From positions 1 through 45,804 of the forward strand of contig CANQST010000007.1 of the NCBI GenBank assembly GCA_947626595.1: 45,804 bases of DNA, in the 5' to 3' direction. Each line of letters opens with the position of its first letter. Position 1 is the first letter of the stretch. The stretch comes from an uncultured Bacilli bacterium. GTDB taxonomy: Bacteria > Bacillota_I > Bacilli_A > RF39 > UBA660. Positions 4,950-35,261 of the stretch are shown here, one piece after another. The notes beneath the pieces were generated by a model. It had not been told where the DNA came from. It made no database searches and saw only the letters and a list, made by a program, of their open reading frames with translations. Both the position numbers and the translations under genes were made by a program.

Positions 4950-5843
4950 TTAGCTCCTATCTAAAGACATTATTTCAAGTAAACGATTTAAGTCATTAGT
5001 ATTGGTAAAAGTTATTTCTATTTTGTTATTTTTAATTTTTACTTTAGTTCCAAGTTTTTCGCATAGTTCTTCTTCAATATATTTATATTCATTTGATGGT
5101 TTATGTTTGGTTAATTGATGGGTTCTAGCAAACTCGTCTTTAGATGTAGTTAAATCTTCAAGACTACGAACACTTAAGCCTTCTTCTATGACTTTGGTTG
5201 CTAAATCTTGTTGCTGTTTTTCGTCGTCTAATTTGCTTAGAACACGGGCATGGCCCATGGAAAGCTTTTTAGTAGCGACTTCGTCTTGAATGGCTTTTGG
5301 TAGAGTTAGTAGGCCTAACATGTTGGTTATGTGGCTACGGCTTTTACCAAGTCTTTGAGAAAGCTCTTCTTGAGTTAAGGCAAGGGTCTCTTGAAGTTTT
5401 TTATAGGCATTTGCTTCTTCGATAGCGTTTAGATTTTCTCTTTGAAGGTTTTCTAGTAAGGCAATTTCCATCATTTCAGTATCATTGAAGTCTCTAACTA
5501 TAGCTGGTATAGAAGATAGGCCTGCTAAAAGAGAGGCTTTGACGCGGCGTTCACCGGCAATTATTTCATAACCTTTAATGCTCTTTTTAACAATAATGGG
5601 CTGAAAAACGCCATGTTCTTTGATAGATGCTGCTAGTTCTTCTAGGGCTTTTTGATCAAAGACTTTTCTTGGTTGATAGGGGTTGGCTCTTAGGTCTTTT
5701 AATTTTACTTGAATTATTCCTTCTTTTGGCGTTTCGTTAATGATTTTTTCTTCGACACGACTGTAGTCTAGAACTTCATTTGTGAATAATTCTTCAAGTC
5801 CTCGACCTAGGGCTCTTCTTTTAGGGGTACTATTGGTTTCCAT
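4950..5843 (-). CDS. parB: Chromosome partitioning protein ParB/Spo0J
   Basis: ALGRGLEELF N-terminus, GERRVKASLLAGLSSIPAIVRD CTPase region, HTH LSQRLGKSRSHITNMLGLLTLP. Confidence 0.97.
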   Translation of the reverse strand: METNSTPKRRALGRGLEELFTNEVLDYSRVEEKIINETPKEGIIQVKLKDLRANPYQPRKVFDQKALEELAASIKEHGVFQPIIVKKSIKGYEIIAGERRVKASLLAGLSSIPAIVRDFNDTEMMEIALLENLQRENLNAIEEANAYKKLQETLALTQEELSQRLGKSRSHITNMLGLLTLPKAIQDEVATKKLSMGHARVLSKLDDEKQQQDLATKVIEEGLSVRSLEDLTTSKDEFARTHQLTKHKPSNEYKYIEEELCEKLGTKVKIKNNKIEITFTNTNDLNRLLEIMSLDRS

Positions 5844-6618
5844 TACGAGAAATCACTTCCTTTGCTAGATTTATATAGGCTTCTGAGCCTCTACTTTTAG
5901 GGTCATATACGACTATTGGTTCACCATGTGATGGGGCTTCTGTTAATTTTATTAATCTTGGAATAATAGTATTATAAACTTTTTCTTTAAAGAATTTTCT
6001 GATATCGTCTACTACTTCGAAACCTAGGTTGGTACGAGAGTCCAACATTGTTAGTAGGACACCTTCGATATCTAGGGTTGGATTTAGTTGTTTTTGAGCA
6101 AGCATGATAGTTTTTAGTAATTGTGTAATTCCTTCTAGAGCAAAGAATTCACATTGAACAGGAATGATAACAGAGTTGGATGCGACTAAAGCGTTGGTGG
6201 TAATTATTCCTAAAGATGGTGGGCAATCTAGAATTATGTAGTCAAAATTGTCTTTGATGGTTGCTAAATGATTTTTTAGTTGAGTTAACTTGTCAAAGTC
6301 TTTTTCTTCACGACTTTTTTCAACTAGCTCGATGTCTAGTCCAGCTAAGTTGATACTTGCTGGTATGACTGATAGGTTTTTGTATTTTGTTTTAATGATG
6401 GCATCACTAATGGGCTTTTCTCCGGCAAATACTTCATAAATACTTACATCGATATCACCTTTATTGATACCTACTCCTGTTGATGTATTTCCCTGAGGGT
6501 CTAAATCTATTAACAAAACTTTTTGACCTAATACTGCTAGGGATGCTGAAAGGTTTATACATGTTGTTGTCTTACCTACTCCACCTTTTTGATTAACTAA
6601 TGCTATTACTTTTCCCAT
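5830..6618 (-). CDS. parA: Chromosome partitioning ATPase ParA/Soj
   Basis: NQKGGVGKTTTCINLSASLA deviant Walker A, LLIDLDPQGNTSTG, DCPPSLGIITTNAL. Confidence 0.97.
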   Translation of the reverse strand: MGKVIALVNQKGGVGKTTTCINLSASLAVLGQKVLLIDLDPQGNTSTGVGINKGDIDVSIYEVFAGEKPISDAIIKTKYKNLSVIPASINLAGLDIELVEKSREEKDFDKLTQLKNHLATIKDNFDYIILDCPPSLGIITTNALVASNSVIIPVQCEFFALEGITQLLKTIMLAQKQLNPTLDIEGVLLTMLDSRTNLGFEVVDDIRKFFKEKVYNTIIPRLIKLTEAPSHGEPIVVYDPKSRGSEAYINLAKEVISRNGNQ

Positions 6619-7702: not shown

Positions 7703-8446
7703 TTATTTAGTTCTTTTCCACATATAAACGGTTATGTAAGGATCTAATGTACTAAAGGATGTTCCTTTACCAGTTGAACCGCTTGTTAATGAAGAAGATT
7801 TTGTAGTCAACTCTGGTATTGTTACCGTTCCAGTTACTGTATGAGTATGCTCACCACCTATTGGTGTCGTTGCCCAATCTCCTGATAAAGGGCCTTGTAA
7901 ATGAACATAATCTCCACTTTGCCAAGAACTACCCATGTTAAAAGTAAATTTATGAGTATGAGCACTGCCTTCAGCATTAGCCGTTAAATTCATTGTAGAT
8001 GTTGTCGTAGAAATAGTAGTATGAGTATGACTAATATCGTGAGTATGTGCTGGTAAATTATCTTCTGTTAAAGTTACAGTTTTACTTCCTCCTGTTTGCC
8101 CCAATGTTTTAAATTCAGTCGAACTTGTATCTATTCCTACTAAGGTTTGTCCTTTTCCAAATACTTCCCATACTCCACCAAATAATGTTGATGGATTTGT
8201 ATTACTATAACTTATATAAATACTTCCTATTGGATATACTTTTAAAAGAAAGTTTTGTAATTCACTACTAAACTTAGTGCAAGTTCCATCTATGGCATTT
8301 TGTACATTAGTCGCCCCTAACTTAGAATTATCTACATAAGAAACATTTTTACTTTCTATTAAAGTTTCTGCTAAAGTACTTGTCATAATAGAAATAAATA
8401 TTCCTAAAAGAATACTTAATAAGACTTTTTTATCTAATTTTTTCAT
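7703..8446 (-). CDS. Exported phage tail/baseplate-like (Gp10/collar-like) protein
   Basis: Signal sequence MKKLDKKVLLSILLGIFISIMTSTLAET; YPIGSIYISYSNTNPSTLFGGVWEVFGKGQTLVGID...LPAHTHDISHTH...FSTLDPYITVYMWKRT typical of phage tail structural proteins. Confidence 0.8.
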   Translation of the reverse strand: MKKLDKKVLLSILLGIFISIMTSTLAETLIESKNVSYVDNSKLGATNVQNAIDGTCTKFSSELQNFLLKVYPIGSIYISYSNTNPSTLFGGVWEVFGKGQTLVGIDTSSTEFKTLGQTGGSKTVTLTEDNLPAHTHDISHTHTTISTTTSTMNLTANAEGSAHTHKFTFNMGSSWQSGDYVHLQGPLSGDWATTPIGGEHTHTVTGTVTIPELTTKSSSLTSGSTGKGTSFSTLDPYITVYMWKRTK

Positions 8447-8462
8447 TAATTACCCCTCTTTT

Positions 8463-8702
8463 CTATTTATTAATACTTTTATTTATGTGTGTATACTCAC
8501 ATATTTTCTTAAAAAAAATATAGCTATCTGCTTTATAATAATTTAATAATTTTTCTAATGTTTCTAAAGTAATTATCTTTTGATTATCTTCATATTTTTG
8601 GAGATTTTTTGCTGATATATTATTGTCTTTAGCAACTTCTTTTAAATCTAAGTTGTTTTTTATTCTAATATTTTTTAATTCTTCAGCCACTAGTAAATTC
8701 AT
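8463..8702 (-). CDS. Xre-family helix-turn-helix regulator
   Basis: LKNIRIKNNLDLKEVAKDNNISAKNLQKYEDNQKIITLETLEKLLNYY; start trimmed to MNLLVAEELKN. Confidence 0.75.
   Translation of the reverse strand: MNLLVAEELKNIRIKNNLDLKEVAKDNNISAKNLQKYEDNQKIITLETLEKLLNYYKADSYIFFKKICEYTHINKSINK
8485..8502. promoter_or_regulatory. Near-palindromic operator-like site 1 (ATGTGTGTATACTCACAT), inside the 3' end of the xre CDS
   Basis: 9+9 bp near-perfect inverted repeat around GTATAC; shares core with site 2. Confidence 0.5.
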
Positions 8703-8733
8703 TTTATTCCCCTCACTAACTATTTTTATTATA

Positions 8734-8751
8734 TCGTGCGTATACTCACTT
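8734..8751. promoter_or_regulatory. Operator-like site 2 (TCGTGCGTATACTCACTT) in the divergent xre intergenic region
   Basis: Shares GTATACTCAC with site 1; imperfect inverted repeat. Confidence 0.5.
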
Positions 8752-8762
8752 GTCAATATTAA

Positions 8763-8780
8763 ATGTGAGTAAATACACTT
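8763..8780. promoter_or_regulatory. Operator-like site 3 (ATGTGAGTAAATACACTT)
   Basis: ATGTGAGTA half-site equals the reverse complement of the right half of site 1. Confidence 0.4.
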
Positions 8781-8843
8781 TTATTGTTGATTAATACTTC
8801 TTTCATGTAGTATAATGTATTTGTATTTTGAGGTGATGAAACA

Positions 8844-9113
8844 ATGGCAAGATTTTTTAATAAAAATCTTAAATATATTAGAAAAATGAAGAAGATTTCG
8901 CAACAGGAGCTAGCTACTAAAATTAAAGTTGATAGGTCTAGTATATCAAGATGGGAAAATAATGAGATGGAAGCTACAGTTGATAAAGCTATTGAAATTG
9001 CGAAAGCTTTAGATGTTCCTACTGCTACATTTCTAGCAACTGATATGACTAATTTAGATATAAAAGTAATTGAAACAATGAAATTTGATTTAGAAAAAAA
9101 GGAAAACTCATAG
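8844..9113 (+). CDS. Xre-family helix-turn-helix regulator
   Basis: LKYIRKMKKISQQELATKIKVDRSSISRWENNEMEATVDKAIEIAKALDV. Confidence 0.92.
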   Translation: MARFFNKNLKYIRKMKKISQQELATKIKVDRSSISRWENNEMEATVDKAIEIAKALDVPTATFLATDMTNLDIKVIETMKFDLEKKENS

Positions 9114-11743: not shown

Positions 11744-13135
11744 ATGAATGTCGATATTTTATGGTCTAAATTTTTAAATTCCATTAAAGAAGATTTAACA
11801 TCACTATCTTTTACCACTTGGTTTCAAGATACTAAGCTTTACCGATTAGAAGAGGGCAATGCTTATGTTATTGTACCAATGCCTATTCATAAGAAACATT
11901 TAATGGATAATTATTCAGAAATGATTAGTAATAGATTATTTGATATAACGGGTAGTAGATATGAGTTAGTCTTTATACTAGAAGAAGAAATTAGTGGGTT
12001 AGAGTTTGAAGAAAAGGATAAAACGTGGAAAGTTGATGGAGTAATTAAGGTAGAACAAGCGGAAGATAATTATAGTTCTACTAATTTACTTAAGAAGTAT
12101 GTATTTGATAATTTTATAGTTGGAAATAGTAATAAGTTTGCTCATGCAGCAGCGTTATCAGTTGCGGAAAATCCTGGTAAAATGTATAATCCTTTATTTT
12201 TATATGGTAATAGTGGACTGGGAAAAACTCATTTGATGCATGCGATTGGGAATTATATTGTGGAAAACTCTAATAATAAAGTTTTATATGTTCCGAGTGA
12301 TCAATTTATTCAAGACTTTGTTAGTATAAATAGGAAAGACGAAAATGATACTAATTTCAATTATGTGGAATTTTTTAAAAATAAATATAGAAGTGTTGAT
12401 GTTTTATTAATTGACGATATTCAATTTTTAGGAGGAGCTTCTAAATCACAGCAAGAATTTTTTAATACATTTAATACTTTATATAATGATGGAAAACAAA
12501 TAATTATTTCTTCAGATAGGTCACCAGATGATTTGAAACTACTTGAGGACCGTTTAAGAACAAGGTTTTGTTGGGGATTAACTGCTGATATAGTTCCTCC
12601 TGATTATACTTTAAAAATGGAAATTATTAAGAAAAAGATAATTGCTGGTAATTTTGAAAAAGAAATACCTGAGGATGTTGTTGAATATATTGCATCTAAC
12701 ATTGGACCAGATGTTAGGCAACTGGAGGGTTCTATTACTAGGTTAATTGCTTATTCTACAATAATGGGTGGTGCTGAAATTAATCTTGATTTAGCAATAG
12801 AAGCATTAAAAGACTTTATTAGTAAAGGTCTTGGGGAAAAGAATGATATTCATAGAGTACAAAAAATTGTCGCGGAATATTTTCAAATTTCTGTTGAAGA
12901 TATAAGGAGTAAAAAGAGGAGTTCTAATATTTCTTTTCCAAGGCAGATTGCTATGTACTTATGTAGAACAATCATAAATGAGTCTTTTCCTAAGATTGGA
13001 ACAGAATTTGGTGGCAAAGATCATTCAACTGTAATGCATTCCGTTGAGAAGATTGAAAAAGAAATAAAAGTTAATAAGGATTTAAATAATATTATTGAAA
13101 AATTAAAGAAAGATATAGGCATTGTGCAAAAGTAG
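11744..13135 (+). CDS. dnaA: Chromosomal replication initiator DnaA
   Basis: GNSGLGKTHLMHAIGN, LLIDDIQFLGG, C-terminal FGGKDHSTVMHSVEKIE. Confidence 0.98.
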   Translation: MNVDILWSKFLNSIKEDLTSLSFTTWFQDTKLYRLEEGNAYVIVPMPIHKKHLMDNYSEMISNRLFDITGSRYELVFILEEEISGLEFEEKDKTWKVDGVIKVEQAEDNYSSTNLLKKYVFDNFIVGNSNKFAHAAALSVAENPGKMYNPLFLYGNSGLGKTHLMHAIGNYIVENSNNKVLYVPSDQFIQDFVSINRKDENDTNFNYVEFFKNKYRSVDVLLIDDIQFLGGASKSQQEFFNTFNTLYNDGKQIIISSDRSPDDLKLLEDRLRTRFCWGLTADIVPPDYTLKMEIIKKKIIAGNFEKEIPEDVVEYIASNIGPDVRQLEGSITRLIAYSTIMGGAEINLDLAIEALKDFISKGLGEKNDIHRVQKIVAEYFQISVEDIRSKKRSSNISFPRQIAMYLCRTIINESFPKIGTEFGGKDHSTVMHSVEKIEKEIKVNKDLNNIIEKLKKDIGIVQK

Positions 13136-18216: not shown

Positions 18217-18228
18217 GAGGTTTTGGAA

Positions 18229-20724
18229 ATGGATAGATTAGAAAAAAATAATATTGTTAAAGAGGTACAAGATTCGTTTTTAGATTATTCAATGAGTGTT
18301 ATAACGGCTCGTGCTATTCCAGATTTAAGGGATGGTTTGAAACCGGTTCATCGTCGTATTTTGTATTCGATGTTTGTTTCGGGATATACTCCTGATAAGC
18401 CTCACAGGAAGAGTGCTAAGACGGTTGGTGAGGTTATGGGTAATTTCCATCCTCATGGTGATTCTTCTATTTATGAAGCTATGGTTAGGATGGCACAAGA
18501 TTTTTCGTATCGTTATATGTTAATTGATGGTCATGGAAATTTTGGTAATATTGAGGGATATGGTGCTGCTGCTATGCGTTATACTGAATCTCGCTTATCA
18601 AAAATTTCTTTGGAATTACTTAGAAATATTAATAAGGATACAGTTGATTTTATTCCCAACTTTGATGAAAGTGAGAAAGAGCCAACGGTTTTACCTTCAA
18701 GATTTCCTAATATTTTGGTAAATGGTACTACTGGTATTGCTGTTGGTATGGCTACTAATATTCCTCCTCATAATTTGGGAGAGGTTATAGATGGTTGTGT
18801 TGCTTATATTGATAATCCTGATATTGATTTGGATGGTTTAATGAAGTATATTAAGGGACCAGATTTTCCTACGGGGGCAATTATTCTTGGTAATAGTGGT
18901 ATTCGTAAGGCTTATGAAACGGGTAGGGGTACAATTACTATTCGAAGTAAGGCCCAGATTGAGGAAAAGAATGGCAGACAGTATATTATAATTGACGAGG
19001 TTCCTTATGGTGTTAATACTTTGGAGCTTAAGAATAAGGTAGCTGAGCTTGTTCACAATAAGGTTATTGATGGAATTAGTGATTATCATTCTGATTTGAA
19101 GGATGGAATAAAGATTACTATTACTTTGAAAAAGGATGCTAATGCACAGGTTGTTTTGAATAAGTTGTATAAGCATACGGCTTTTCAAACTAGTTATGGT
19201 ATAATTTTCTTAATGCTTGATCAGGGTGTACCTAAGACACTTGGACTTAAGGATATTATCATTAAGTATATTGATTATCAAAGGGAAGTTATTATTAGAA
19301 GAACTAAGTTTGATTTGGATGTTGCTCAGAAGCGTGTTCATATTTTAGAGGGCTTGAAAATTGCTTTGGATAATATTGATGCGGTAATTAAGTTAATTCG
19401 TGGTTCTGATTCTGATGATGATGCTCGTGCTGGGTTGATGGATAACTTTAAGTTAACGGAAATTCAAGCTAATGCTATTTTGGAAATGAGATTACGTCGT
19501 TTGACTGGTTTGGAACGTGAAAAGATAGAGAATGAACTTAAGGATTTACTTAAAACTATTGATGAGTTGAATGCTATTTTGGCTAGTGATGCTAAGATAT
19601 TAGAAGTTATTAAGAATGAATTACTTGAGATTAAGTCTAAGTATGGTGATGAGAGACGTACTAATATTGACATGACTGCTATTGAGTATATTGAGGATGA
19701 GTCTTTGATACCTGAGGAAGATATTATTATTACTTTAACTAATAATGGTTATATAAAGAGATTACGTAGTGATACTTATCGTACTCAAAACCGTGGTGGT
19801 GTTGGTATTAAGGGAATGTCTACTAATGAAGAGGATTTTGCTAAGCATTTAGTTTCTATGAAAACGCATGATTATATATTATTCTTCTCTAATAAGGGTA
19901 GAGTATATCGTATGAAGGGTTATGAAGTTCCTGAGTTTTCTAGACAGTCTAAGGGATTACCTATTGTTAATTTATTACCACTTGAGAAAGATGAGAACAT
20001 TAGTTCTATAGTTGATTTGAAGGCTAATAATGATGATTTTACTAAGTATTTAATGTTTGCTACTAAGGATGGTATTGTTAAGAGAACGGCTATTGAGGAG
20101 TTTGATAACATTAGAAAGAGTGGTAAAATTGCTATTGTTCTTAAGGAAAATGACGAGCTTATTAGTGTTCGTAAGACTTGTGGAAAAAATGAAATTATAA
20201 TTGGAGCAAGTAATGGTCGCATGGTTCGTTTTGATGAAAATGAAATTCGTTCTATGGGAAGAAGTAGTTCTGGTGTTAAGGGTATTGACCTGGACGGTAG
20301 TATGGTTGTAGGTGCTGAGGTTGTTCAACCTGGTGAGTATGTATTAATTGTTACTGAGCGTGGTTATGGTAAGAAGAGTTTAATTGATGAGTATCGTTTA
20401 ACGCATAGAGGTAGCAAGGGTGTTAAGGCTTATAACATTACTGATAAGAATGGTGTTATGGTAGCTTTGAAAACGTTTAATGGTAATTTTGAAAATGAAT
20501 TGGATGTTATTGTAGTTACGGATAGTGGGGTATTTATGAAAATGCCTTTGGATCAAATTTCTACTTTGAAACGTGCTACTCAGGGCGTAAGGTTAATTAA
20601 TTTGAAGGATGACCAACTTGTTTCTACTGTTACTATTGTTAAGAAGGAAGAAGACAATAGTGAAGATAGCGATAGTCCAGATGTGGATGTATCTAATAAT
20701 GTGAGTGAAGAGGTAAGCAATTAG
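18229..20724 (+). CDS. gyrA: DNA gyrase subunit A
   Basis: [45 protein letters not shown]; start assigned at MDRLEKNN. Confidence 0.99.
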
Positions 20725-20815: not shown

Positions 20816-20839
20816 AAATTATTTCCCGGGAAATAATTT
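20816..20839. promoter_or_regulatory. Perfect 24-bp palindrome AAATTATTTCCCGGGAAATAATTT (Noc-binding-site-like), copy A
   Basis: Contains ATTTCCCGGGAAAT; identical to four other copies in window. Confidence 0.85.
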
Positions 20840-20936
20840 GAGTTGTGGAATTTTATAGAATTGTGTTTATATTTTATTAATTTTTGGCTTTTGGTATATA
20901 AATTTGCTTATTATGTTTAGAAAGGTATAATAACAA

Positions 20937-20952
20937 TGTTTCACGTGAAACA
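20937..20952. promoter_or_regulatory. parS: parS site 1 (TGTTTCACGTGAAACA)
   Basis: Perfect 16-bp palindrome matching parS; symmetry extends to 22 bp (20934-20955). Confidence 0.95.
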
Positions 20953-21193
20953 TTGAAATATTATTTAAAATATTAATTTAAAGTGATCTGCTTAGTATTT
21001 TTTTTATTATATATAAAAATAAAATGGACGACTTGTTGAAAAAATTATATTTTTGTTAATTAAAATATAGTTGATATATAGTTGTCGTTTTGTTTATTAA
21101 TTATATATGAATGTGATAAATATATATAATTTCATTTTATTTTAGTTATATATTTTTATTAGGAATGCCTTGTGCATAACAGTAGAATTGTTT

Positions 21194-21217
21194 AAATTAT
21201 TTCCCGGGAAATAATTT
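21194..21217. promoter_or_regulatory. Noc-binding-site-like palindrome, copy B
   Basis: AAATTATTTCCCGGGAAATAATTT. Confidence 0.85.
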
Positions 21218-21263
21218 AGTTGCGATATTTTTAATGGTAAATTTGAGTTATATACTTATTTAA

Positions 21264-21279
21264 TGTTTCACGTGAAACA
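21264..21279. promoter_or_regulatory. parS: parS site 2 (TGTTTCACGTGAAACA)
   Basis: Perfect parS palindrome. Confidence 0.95.
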
Positions 21280-21356
21280 TATATGTTGAAAATTGAATTT
21301 TTATATTTATTATTTGTGATTGTTTTAATTTTGAACTTTTTTAATTATTATTTTAA

Positions 21357-21372
21357 TGTTCTACGTGGAACA
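21357..21372. promoter_or_regulatory. parS: parS-like site 3 (TGTTCTACGTGGAACA)
   Basis: One mismatch to the palindrome TGTTCCACGTGGAACA. Confidence 0.75.
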
Positions 21373-21380
21373 TATGGTTA

Positions 21381-21404
21381 AAATTATTTCCCGGGAAATA
21401 ATTT
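21381..21404. promoter_or_regulatory. Noc-binding-site-like palindrome, copy C
   Basis: AAATTATTTCCCGGGAAATAATTT, symmetry extends to 26 bp. Confidence 0.85.
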
Positions 21405-21449
21405 TGTTGAGTATGTTTAAAAATAAATTTAAGTATATAATTAATCTAA

Positions 21450-21465
21450 TGTTTCACGTGAAACA
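21450..21465. promoter_or_regulatory. parS: parS site 4 (TGTTTCACGTGAAACA)
   Basis: Perfect parS palindrome. Confidence 0.95.
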
Positions 21466-21545
21466 TATATGTTGATATTTGAAACTCTATATTTTTTCCT
21501 TTCTATTATTATATTCATTGTTATGGATTGATTTTATTATTTCAA

Positions 21546-21561
21546 TGTTCCACGTGGAACA
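21546..21561. promoter_or_regulatory. parS: parS site 5 (TGTTCCACGTGGAACA)
   Basis: Perfect palindrome, alternative parS variant. Confidence 0.88.
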
Positions 21562-21567
21562 TATGGG

Positions 21568-21591
21568 AAATTATTTCCCGGGAAATAATTT
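21568..21591. promoter_or_regulatory. Noc-binding-site-like palindrome, copy D
   Basis: AAATTATTTCCCGGGAAATAATTT. Confidence 0.85.
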
Positions 21592-21608
21592 GAGTGGTTG
21601 TATGTTAA

Positions 21609-21624
21609 TGTTTCACGTGAAACA
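21609..21624. promoter_or_regulatory. parS: parS site 6 (TGTTTCACGTGAAACA)
   Basis: Perfect parS palindrome. Confidence 0.95.
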
Positions 21625-21670
21625 TTGTTTTTTTATTTACTTTTTTTTTAAGTTATAATAAAATATATTC

Positions 21671-21741
21671 GTGCAATGAAAGTGATTGAACCAGGTCAGG
21701 ATTGGAAAATAGCAGCCTTAAGGTCCTCCTTTCATGTGCAC
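21671..21741 (+). ncRNA. ffs: Small bacterial SRP RNA (4.5S-like)
   Basis: ACCAGGTCAGGATTGGAAAATAGCAGCC conserved domain IV; GTGCAATGAAAG...CTTTCATGTGCAC closing stem; T-run follows; TATAAT at 21654-21659. Confidence 0.92.
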
Positions 21742-21763
21742 TTTTTATTTGGAGTTGAAATTT

Positions 21764-22250: not shown

Positions 22251-23948
22251 ATGTATCAAGCTTTATATAGAAAATATCGTCCTGTTGATTTTAATTCTGT
22301 TATTGGACAAAAAAGTATTATTAGGACTTTGAAAAATTCGATTGTTAATAAAACTTTTACGCATGCTTATATGTTTTTTGGGCCTAGGGGAACTGGTAAG
22401 ACTACTATTTCTAAGATTTTTGCTCGTAGTATAAATTGTTTGGAACCTGTAGATGGTATAGCTTGTGGAAAATGTAAAAATTGTTTGGAAGCTTTTAAGT
22501 CTTCTTGTGTTGATATTATTGAGATTGATGCGGCTTCTAATAATGGTGTTGACGAAATTAGAGAACTTAGGAGTAAAGTTGCTTTAGTTCCGGCTGAATT
22601 AAAGTTTAAGGTTTATATTATTGACGAGGTCCATATGCTTTCTATTGGTGCTTTTAATGCTTTACTTAAGACTTTGGAAGAACCTCCTGAGCATGTTGTA
22701 TTTATTTTGGCAACGACTGATCCACAAAAAGTTCCTGAAACTATAATTTCTAGGTGTCAATGTTTTTCTTTTAGAAGAATTTCGCAAAATGATATTGTGG
22801 AAAGATTAAAATTTATTTGTGAAAAGGAAAATATTAGTGTTGATACTGAAGTTTTGGACGAAATTGCTTTGGCATCTGATGGCGGAATGCGTGATGCTTT
22901 GGGTACTCTTGATAAGTTGGTATCATTTTGTTCTTCTAAGATTACAGTAGACGATTTTTATGAATTAAATGGTATGATTACTAGAAAAGATTTAAAGTTA
23001 TTTTATGATAAATTATTTAGTTTTGATATGTCTGGTATTTTAGAATTAATTAATGATTATAATATGAATGGCAAAAATTTAATTCAAATTTTTACGCAAA
23101 TAATGTTTTCTCTTAGAAATCAGCTTGTGGATTATTATGTTTCAAATGTTGAAAGTGATTATAATATTGATTTAGTTAATGAATTTGTCAATTTAATTAA
23201 CGAAAATATGTTCGATATTAAAAAGAGTGATAATCCTAAAATTTTTATTGAAATGTTATTAATGAAATTTATAAAAGCTCATAGTACTGAAAAAATTGAA
23301 AAAAAGCTTGTGGAAAAAAGTTCTGAATTTGCAGAGAAAGATATAAGGAATGAAAAAATTAGTGAAATTGATAATAAAAATAGTGAAATATTGCCAGTAG
23401 AGGATGAAAAAATTATTTCCCAAGGGGAATCTGATGGTGAAATTATTTCCCGGGAAATAATTTCTAATGATAATTTGATAAAAAATATTAATGAAATTAT
23501 GAATGTTCGTGTAAATAATGTTATGGCTCAGGCTGATAAAAATATTTTAAAGTTAGAAATACAAAAGTTTAATTTGTTAAATGAATTTACTTTTGATCAG
23601 GAAATTGGATATTTAGTTTGTAGTTTGTTGGATGCTAAAATTAGAGCTGCTAGTGAAAATGGTATAATTCTTAGTTATGAATATGACTCTAATGTCAAAC
23701 AAAATTTGGTTAATTTACATAAAATAATTGATGTTTATAATAAAATTACTAATTCTAATAAAATTATTGCGATAATTACTGACGAGCGTTGGGAAACAGA
23801 GAAAAATAAGTATATTAAGGCTTTAAAGGATGGAAAAAAGTATGAAATTTTAGAAGAGCCAGAAGAAATATTTGAGAAACAAGAAAATAATGATATAATA
23901 GGTAGTAGTGCAATTAATCTATTTGGAGATATTGTGGAAGTTGAATAG
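22251..23948 (+). CDS. dnaX: DNA polymerase III gamma/tau subunit
   Basis: MYQALYRKYRPVDFNSVIGQKSIIRTLKNSI; FGPRGTGKTTISKIFA; zinc-binding cysteines. Confidence 0.97.
   Translation: MYQALYRKYRPVDFNSVIGQKSIIRTLKNSIVNKTFTHAYMFFGPRGTGKTTISKIFARSINCLEPVDGIACGKCKNCLEAFKSSCVDIIEIDAASNNGVDEIRELRSKVALVPAELKFKVYIIDEVHMLSIGAFNALLKTLEEPPEHVVFILATTDPQKVPETIISRCQCFSFRRISQNDIVERLKFICEKENISVDTEVLDEIALASDGGMRDALGTLDKLVSFCSSKITVDDFYELNGMITRKDLKLFYDKLFSFDMSGILELINDYNMNGKNLIQIFTQIMFSLRNQLVDYYVSNVESDYNIDLVNEFVNLINENMFDIKKSDNPKIFIEMLLMKFIKAHSTEKIEKKLVEKSSEFAEKDIRNEKISEIDNKNSEILPVEDEKIISQGESDGEIISREIISNDNLIKNINEIMNVRVNNVMAQADKNILKLEIQKFNLLNEFTFDQEIGYLVCSLLDAKIRAASENGIILSYEYDSNVKQNLVNLHKIIDVYNKITNSNKIIAIITDERWETEKNKYIKALKDGKKYEILEEPEEIFEKQENNDIIGSSAINLFGDIVEVE
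23440..23463. promoter_or_regulatory. Noc-binding-site-like palindrome, copy E (within dnaX)
   Basis: Identical AAATTATTTCCCGGGAAATAATTT; symmetry extends to 26 bp (23439-23464). Confidence 0.8.
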
Positions 23949-33479: not shown

Positions 33480-33717
33480 ATAATAGGACCATAAATGTTG
33501 TGAAGAAGAGTTTTATGGTCAAATAACTAGTTAAGAGAACTTTTGGTTGGTGGGAAAAAGTATAGTTAGATTATAAAATATGGCTTTGGAGCTGTTATAT
33601 CGATATGTAGGTATAAACGTTAATAGGCGTTAACTATTTAAAGTGTATAATACAAGTTATTATAAAGTAAGGTGGTACCGCGAGTTTTCGTCCTTATATT
33701 TATAATAACTTTTTTTT
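33480..33717 (+). promoter_or_regulatory. T-box leader upstream of metS
   Basis: AAGGTGGTACCGCG antiterminator bulge motif; AAGTTATTATAAA...TTTATAATAACTTTTTTTT terminator stem. Confidence 0.92.
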
Positions 33718-33731
33718 GGAGGGAGAATTTT

Positions 33732-35261
33732 ATGGAAAAATATTATATTTCAACGGCTATTGCTTATACTTCAGGCAAGCCACATATTGGTAATACTTAT
33801 GAAGTTGTGTTGGCTGATGCTATTGCGAGATTTAAGAGATTACAGGGTTATGATGTTTATTTTCAAACTGGTACAGACGAGCATGGAGAAAAAATTGAGT
33901 TAAAAGCTAAAGAGGCTGGAGTATCACCACAGGAGTTTGTTGATAAAGTTGCGGCAGAGATTAGGCGTATTTGGGATATTATGGATACGAGCTATGATCG
34001 TTTTGTTAGAACAACAGATAAAAAGCATGAAGAAGTAGTTCAGCATATTTTTAAGTATATGTATGACAAAGGTGATATTTATAAAGGAGAGTATAAAGGT
34101 CTTTATTGTACGCCATGTGAGTCTTTTTGGACAGAAAGTCAATTAGTTGATGGTAAATGTCCAGATTGTGGAAGAGATGTTGTTTTTAAAGAAGAAGAGG
34201 CTTATTTCTTTAAGTTATCTAAATATCAAAAAGATTTAGAAGATTATATTGAAAAGCATCCAGAATTTATTCAACCAGTTGCGAGAAAAAATGAAATGAT
34301 AAATAATTTTATTAAACCTGGTTTACAAGATTTATGTGTTTCTAGGACTTCTTTTAAATGGGGAATACCAGTTGATTTTGATAATAAGCATGTTGTTTAT
34401 GTATGGCTTGATGCTTTAACTAATTATATTACTAATATAGGTTTTGATTTTGATAAGTCAACAGAAGAATTTAAGTATAAATGGCCAGCTGATTTACATT
34501 TAATTGGTAAAGATATTATAAGATTTCATACTATTTATTGGCCATGTTTCTTAATGAGTTTGGACTTGCCTTTACCTAAACAAGTATTTGGTCATCCGTG
34601 GTTATTAATGAATTCTGATAAAATGAGTAAGTCAAAAGGAAATATTATTTATGCGGATGATTTAGTAGAAAAGTTTGGTGTTGATGCAGTAAGATTTTAC
34701 TTGTTACATGAAATACCTTTTGCGAGTGATGGTAATATTAATTATGAATTAGTTATTGATAAAGTAAATAGTGAACTTGCGAATGTATTAGGAAATTTAG
34801 TTCAAAGAACTATTTCTATGGGACATAAGTATTTTAATGGAAAAATTAAGAATACTTTAGTAGAAGAAGATATTGATAAAGAGTTTATTAAGGGTATAAA
34901 TGAATTAAAAAATATTACTTTTGAAAAGATGGATAAATTACAAGTGAGTGACGCTATGACGGAGATATTTAATGTCCTTAGAAGTAGTAATAAATATATT
35001 GATGAGACAACTCCATGGGTTTTAGCGAAAGATGCAAATAAGACTGATAGACTTGAGACTGTTTTATATAATTTACTTGAAGCTATTAGAATTTGTGCTT
35101 TATTATTAGAGCCTTTTATGCCAAGTACTAGTAAAAATATTTTGAAACAGTTAAATAATATTGAAGATGCTCTTTTCTATGTTAGTGACAATACTTATGA
35201 GCTAGGTCAAGCAGAAATATTGTTCCAAAGAATAGATAAGAGTAAGTTTTTTGAGGAATAG
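33732..35261 (+). CDS. metS: Methionyl-tRNA synthetase
   Basis: YYISTAIAYTSGKPHIGNTYE; KMSKSKGN; start trimmed to MEKYYIST. Confidence 0.97.
   Translation: MEKYYISTAIAYTSGKPHIGNTYEVVLADAIARFKRLQGYDVYFQTGTDEHGEKIELKAKEAGVSPQEFVDKVAAEIRRIWDIMDTSYDRFVRTTDKKHEEVVQHIFKYMYDKGDIYKGEYKGLYCTPCESFWTESQLVDGKCPDCGRDVVFKEEEAYFFKLSKYQKDLEDYIEKHPEFIQPVARKNEMINNFIKPGLQDLCVSRTSFKWGIPVDFDNKHVVYVWLDALTNYITNIGFDFDKSTEEFKYKWPADLHLIGKDIIRFHTIYWPCFLMSLDLPLPKQVFGHPWLLMNSDKMSKSKGNIIYADDLVEKFGVDAVRFYLLHEIPFASDGNINYELVIDKVNSELANVLGNLVQRTISMGHKYFNGKIKNTLVEEDIDKEFIKGINELKNITFEKMDKLQVSDAMTEIFNVLRSSNKYIDETTPWVLAKDANKTDRLETVLYNLLEAIRICALLLEPFMPSTSKNILKQLNNIEDALFYVSDNTYELGQAEILFQRIDKSKFFEE

Follow-up and report, generated by a model that had tools for sequence, protein, structure and literature searches.

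Genes and predicted binding sites at the locus

The window analyzed here is the whole 45,804-nt stretch of contig CANQST010000007.1. Between gyrA (18223–20724) and the gene for the bacterial small SRP RNA lies a composite array of 809 bp (20816–21624), in which four identical 24-bp CCCGGG palindromes (AAATTATTTCCCGGGAAATAATTT), resembling Noc-binding sites (NBS), alternate with six 16-mers that are parS or parS-like. The features of the locus are listed below; the binding sites carry no strand.

4950–5843, minus strand: ParB, 297 aa, with ParB_N, HTH_ParB, and ParB_C domains
5830–6618, minus strand: ParA/Soj-type ATPase, overlapping parB
11744–13135, plus strand: dnaA, origin landmark (named by gene order; homologues in the same order in relatives)
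20816–20839: NBS-like palindrome N1, AAATTATTTCCCGGGAAATAATTT
20937–20952: parS P1, exact, TGTTTCACGTGAAACA
21194–21217: NBS-like palindrome N2
21264–21279: parS P2, exact
21357–21372: parS-like P3, TGTTCTACGTGGAACA, one mismatch to TGTTNCACGTGNAACA
21381–21404: NBS-like palindrome N3
21450–21465: parS P4, exact
21546–21561: parS P5, TGTTCCACGTGGAACA
21568–21591: NBS-like palindrome N4
21609–21624: parS P6, exact
21660–21756: bacterial small SRP RNA (Rfam match)
23439–23464: fifth NBS, a 26-bp palindrome within the dnaX coding sequence, translated ISREI

The NBS-like cores of the array (ATTTCCCGGGAAAT) begin at 20821, 21199, 21386, and 21573, and each sits within a perfect palindrome of 24–26 bp, the 24-mer being common to all. 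Exact parS sequences (TGTTNCACGTGNAACA) begin at 20937, 21264, 21450, 21546, and 21609, and the sixth site, at 21357, departs from them at one position. The array is real: the four palindromes and six parS or parS-like sites reported in an earlier note on this DNA were found in the same interval and in the same order, N-P-N-P-P-N-P-P-N-P. The fifth NBS, with an exact 14-mer at 23445 inside dnaX, had been overlooked. The array starts approximately 7.7 kb past the 3' end of dnaA, and the six parS sites fall within 0.7 kb, about 8 kb past dnaA, and are thus clustered within about 10 kb of this gene. Elsewhere in the window, a T-box leader (33491–33698) was found just 5' of the methionyl-tRNA synthetase gene (33672–35261).

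When up to three mismatches were allowed, the window contained 12 strand-matches to parS against 0.8 expected by chance, and six matches to the NBS against 1.8 expected; none of the shuffled sequences attained the observed number of either. The whole source assembly (1.35 Mb in 68 contigs) was scanned for both motifs with up to two mismatches. The only exact NBS 14-mers were the four in the array and the one in dnaX, the only exact parS were P1, P2, P4, P5, and P6 of the array, and, apart from P3 with its one mismatch, all remaining matches had two mismatches. Exact NBS and parS therefore occur only within 2.8 kb past gyrA, with the five NBS in 2.7 kb. This result rules out an abundance of NBS throughout the genome without origin bias, and the claim of the earlier note that both site classes are co-packed near the origin holds, as no other exact copies exist in the assembly.

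Two ParB-family proteins

ParB and Noc, the classic example of paired CTP-switch clamps, were born of a gene duplication, one serving chromosome segregation and the other division-site control. Two proteins encoded in the source genome scored above the family cut-off for ParB_N. The ParB of the window has R, M, T, and G at the positions corresponding to 173, 179, 184, and 201 of Caulobacter ParB, which is specificity of the parS type, and carries a ParA-binding motif, LGRGL (KRRALGRGLEELF), as well as the CTP motifs GERR and ENLQR. The second protein, of 434 aa, is encoded on another contig (C3; loci L017 and L129) and has the Noc-type combination Q173-K179-S184-R201. The specificity positions were taken from a study in which R173 and G201 conferred parS binding, and Q173 and R201 conferred NBS binding given one lysine at 179 or 184 (PMC7383237). 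Q-K-x-R occurs without exception in the Noc-type proteins read from relatives, and R-x-x-G in almost all of those of the ParB type. Neither protein of the source genome has lost the CTP-pocket motifs GERR and ENLQR, which are invariant in the family alignment of Noc. In a phylogenetic tree, the Noc clade of the home family joined the Noc proteins of other Bacilli with a support of 0.998, ruling out that the Noc-type specificity arose through convergence; the nearest solved structures of the second protein are those of Noc (7nfu, E 4e-65), and a close Noc is encoded in a Candidatus Onthousia genome. By descent and by its predicted DNA recognition residues, the second protein is a Noc orthologue. 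The earlier note would have given up its idea if no ParB-family protein bound the CCCGGG palindrome, and the genome encodes a candidate for such binding.

The noc gene is found immediately 5' of parA-parB in most close relatives. In the source organism this link is broken: noc is on another contig, beside a mobile element, in a bin with 4.7% contamination, which counts against the reading proposed below. The region directly 3' of noc (positions 2218–7109 of L129) encodes a serine recombinase, a D5_N/DUF5906 protein (D5-type primase), and an SSB-like ORF and, judged from this gene content, is an integrated mobile element. In the window, a phage baseplate protein with a Gp10_C domain and two XRE-type repressors occupy positions 7703–9113 between jag and parA, the interval in which noc is found in most close relatives. 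Prophage debris may have separated noc from parA.

An N-terminal amphipathic helix is highly conserved in described Noc proteins and required for their function (PMC4331003; PMC8429893), and nucleoid occlusion in Bacillus subtilis depends on it (PMC4331003). This membrane helix is absent from the source Noc and from nearly all family members read: the N-terminus of the family Noc proteins leads straight into the CTP domain's first strand, with a median of 19 residues ahead of NRFQPR, and the hydrophobic moment of the first 14 residues was low in five of the six scanned. The Noc proteins of Bacilli families f6, f8, and f11 have a hydrophobic N-terminus. In family f9, the Noc-type proteins (L273 and L275; approximately 255 aa) likewise have no N-terminal helix, and therefore its absence is not unique to the home family. 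The source Noc has a linker of approximately 180 residues, mostly disordered in the structural model, which leads to a folded C-terminal dimerization domain and carries a few brief conserved stretches, among them KFINYGEI, FITPAEKI, and DYF..PDL. Its score against the NCBIfam Noc model TIGR04285 was 288 bits, below the curated cut-off of 315, and its five predicted sites all lie within 2.7 kb instead of being dispersed along at least the origin-proximal half of the chromosome. With no membrane helix, a score short of the curated cut-off, and no dispersed sites, the name nucleoid occlusion protein does not suit the second protein.

These features bear on the strongest alternative to the reading that we prefer, namely, that the locus serves ordinary nucleoid occlusion in a small genome, where a few sites at the origin would suffice for DNA–membrane contact and a block of FtsZ, the contact depending on a partner or on a different region of Noc. 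The orthology with Noc and the NBS specificity residues are in its favor, the Noc sites of Staphylococcus aureus and B. subtilis are also origin-biased (PMC5540599), and in B. subtilis the formation of midcell Z rings is delayed by Spo0J and Noc acting together (PMC6852036). However, the N-terminal helix needed for function (PMC4331003) is absent from nearly all family members read, and the sites number only a few per genome rather than dozens, those that were mapped clustering at the origin. We regard this explanation as unlikely, although it keeps a real share of our expectation.

Conservation of the sites across the family

The relatives compared were metagenome-assembled gut Bacilli. The 16-bp NBS core TATTTCCCGGGAAATA was present in 216 of 294 family genomes, and the reversed control pattern in none of the 294, which, with the shuffled sequences, rules out chance palindromes. 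The array was found in many genera and is neither private to a single strain nor an assembly artefact, so that its absence from relatives, which the earlier note had named as a ground for abandoning the idea, was not what we observed. The origin regions of 27 family genomes yielded 67 NBS cores with an assigned location, 38 of them in the gyrA–tadA intergenic region, 16 within dnaX, and 13 nearby; these regions were picked around the origin, and the shares are not genome-wide estimates. In an unbiased whole-genome scan of the source genus, all 24 NBS copies were near gyrA–dnaX, no farther than about 7 kb from gyrA in the cases that allowed a measurement. Between congeners whose gyrA genes are 88% identical in nucleotide sequence, essentially nothing of the intergenic region aligns apart from its first ~68 bp, the parS sites, and the NBS.

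Copies of the NBS within dnaX encode ISREI at more than one codon position and, from a different frame, YFPGN in another genus; recurrence at differing codons and in two frames therefore indicates selection on the DNA. The sites also turn over into the coding sequences of yaaK and mfd, and their distance to a promoter is not fixed. One genome (G030; L192, position 9162) has an NBS between dnaA and yidC, within what is likely the oriC region itself.

An NBS–parS composite (gap of at most ~63 bp) was found in 15 of 54 family genomes, compared with 1 of 343 genomes of other Bacilli. Some arrays consist of tandem composite units, such as a 66-bp N-P repeat in G011 and repeated P-N pairs in G021, and many family members have their NBS near the parS cluster yet outside it, a point against the fusion proposed below. 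G003 was dropped as an example of an NBS-only genome; it carries 14-bp parS variants (GTTTCACGTGAAAC) and is therefore composite too. G029 is a poor witness, as its bin contains two different gyrA genes and a third, ParC-like match. In G015 (L195), both site types have drifted together, with TATTTCCTGGGAAATA and TGTTTCACGTGAAACT alternating, and the ParB of this genome has Ser in place of Gly at position 201. One genome of another Bacilli family (G512, L262) has a single composite NBS–parS pair between gyrA and tadA, which possibly arose independently.

The palindromes might instead be operators through which Noc or another repressor controls gyrA, the SRP RNA gene, dnaX, or its own gene, as could be imagined from the NBS located a few hundred bases from noc in G010, G013, and G008, and from the one between dnaA and yidC in G030. 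The switching of the sites between intergenic and coding DNA (dnaX, yaaK, and mfd) at no constant distance from a promoter, and their co-occurrence with parS in tandem composite units (G011 and G021), make such a role improbable.

Co-occurrence and co-loss of NBS with Noc

In genomes of 90% or higher completeness, NBS were present in 153 of 193 Noc-positive genomes and in 2 of 15 Noc-negative genomes (Fisher test, kinship ignored; p 4e-7). When only Noc-negative genomes with an assembled parS array were considered, NBS occurred in 2 of 11 (p 5e-5). Against the reading proposed below, the exact core was missing in 40 of the 193 Noc-positive genomes, which may reflect degenerate sites, assembly gaps, or the use of other sites. 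In each of two genera (g112 and g146), noc was missing in both species examined, parS was kept between gyrA and dnaX, and no NBS was found in that interval. Lineages without Noc thus retain parS but mostly have no NBS. As for G248, one of the two Noc-negative genomes with NBS, its parB lies ~1.4 kb from a contig end, and noc was therefore probably merely unassembled.

That the palindromes are sites of an unrelated DNA-binding protein, transcription terminators, or repeat junk is barely credible: their perfect symmetry within AT-rich intergenic DNA and the clear tandem duplication of some arrays (G029 and G011) speak for it, but their presence tracks Noc, their core is invariant amid turnover of the surrounding DNA, they recur in coding sequence, and a loopless perfect palindrome makes a poor hairpin. 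Terminators in particular are ruled out, since the palindromes have no loop and occur within genes.

Proposed role of the locus

Taking together the sites, both proteins, their specificity residues, the conservation, the co-loss, and the origin restriction, all of which are read directly in the sequences, we consider it likely that in this uncultured gut species the chromosomal ParABS centromere has merged with a zone, confined to the origin, where a second clamp of the ParB family is loaded: Noc, the output of which would be origin-specific. ParB (4950–5843) would load at the six parS sites, and the Noc orthologue (C3, 434 aa, Q-K-S-R) at the CCCGGG palindromes. Because both proteins retain CTP-binding motifs, they would be expected to close into sliding clamps and to co-spread on the same origin-proximal DNA; for the same reason, the suggestion of the earlier note that two CTP-dependent clamps could be loaded on one stretch of DNA is a sound one. 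The Noc of S. aureus spreads across 8–10 kb (PMC5540599), and therefore the two clamps should overlap at the array if spreading here is similar.

The disordered linker is a likely docking place for a partner, which might act in division, in replication, or in anchoring. Replication initiation is restrained by Noc in S. aureus (PMC5540599), and in B. subtilis, Spo0J and Noc jointly delay midcell Z rings early in replication (PMC6852036). For an origin-centered Noc without the helix, an output reached through a partner at the linker appears to fit better than membrane occlusion. The link to division-site control that the earlier note had proposed is unsupported as stated where it would run by the known Noc route, given a Noc without the N-terminal amphipathic helix and sites confined to the origin; a link of the array to division control is nevertheless plausible.

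We also put forward, tentatively and short of calling it likely, a two-clamp centromere in which the Noc of this family, once a marker of the entire nucleoid, would now mark only the origin, with membrane occlusion dropped. Its linker would couple the segregating origin to replication initiation, anchoring, or division timing, and the ParB and Noc clamps would mix on centromeric DNA.

Comparison with known systems

No description of a composite NBS/parS locus was found in the open-access literature searched, and the interleaved arrangement of parS and Noc sites, kept family-wide, is apparently new to the literature. It offers a whole bacterial family in which the ParB and Noc loading sites are merged at the origin, and a natural setting in which to ask whether two kinds of sliding clamp coexist, obstruct each other, or sort themselves out along the same DNA. 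It is also an opening to ask how Noc functions without a membrane helix, and genera in which Noc and NBS are kept or lost together provide a ready comparative system.

With its parA-parB near dnaA, a ParA-binding motif, and clustered consensus parS, the locus resembles the Soj-Spo0J-parS system of B. subtilis and, on these predicted components, is a chromosomal ParABS centromere; unlike in that system, the parS sites are interleaved with those of a second ParB-family protein. With the Noc-NBS systems of B. subtilis and S. aureus it shares an orthologous protein, the specificity residues, the CCCGGG core, and the CTP motifs, whereas it differs in the missing N-terminal helix, the long disordered linker, the few origin-clustered sites, and the position of noc directly 5' of parA-parB in most close relatives. 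Finally, S. aureus Noc regulates replication initiation (PMC5540599), and the locus resembles it in having a Noc protein with a presumed effect at the origin; the sites of S. aureus Noc, at 41 loci, span the origin-proximal half of the chromosome (PMC5540599), whereas those described here are packed into the centromere.
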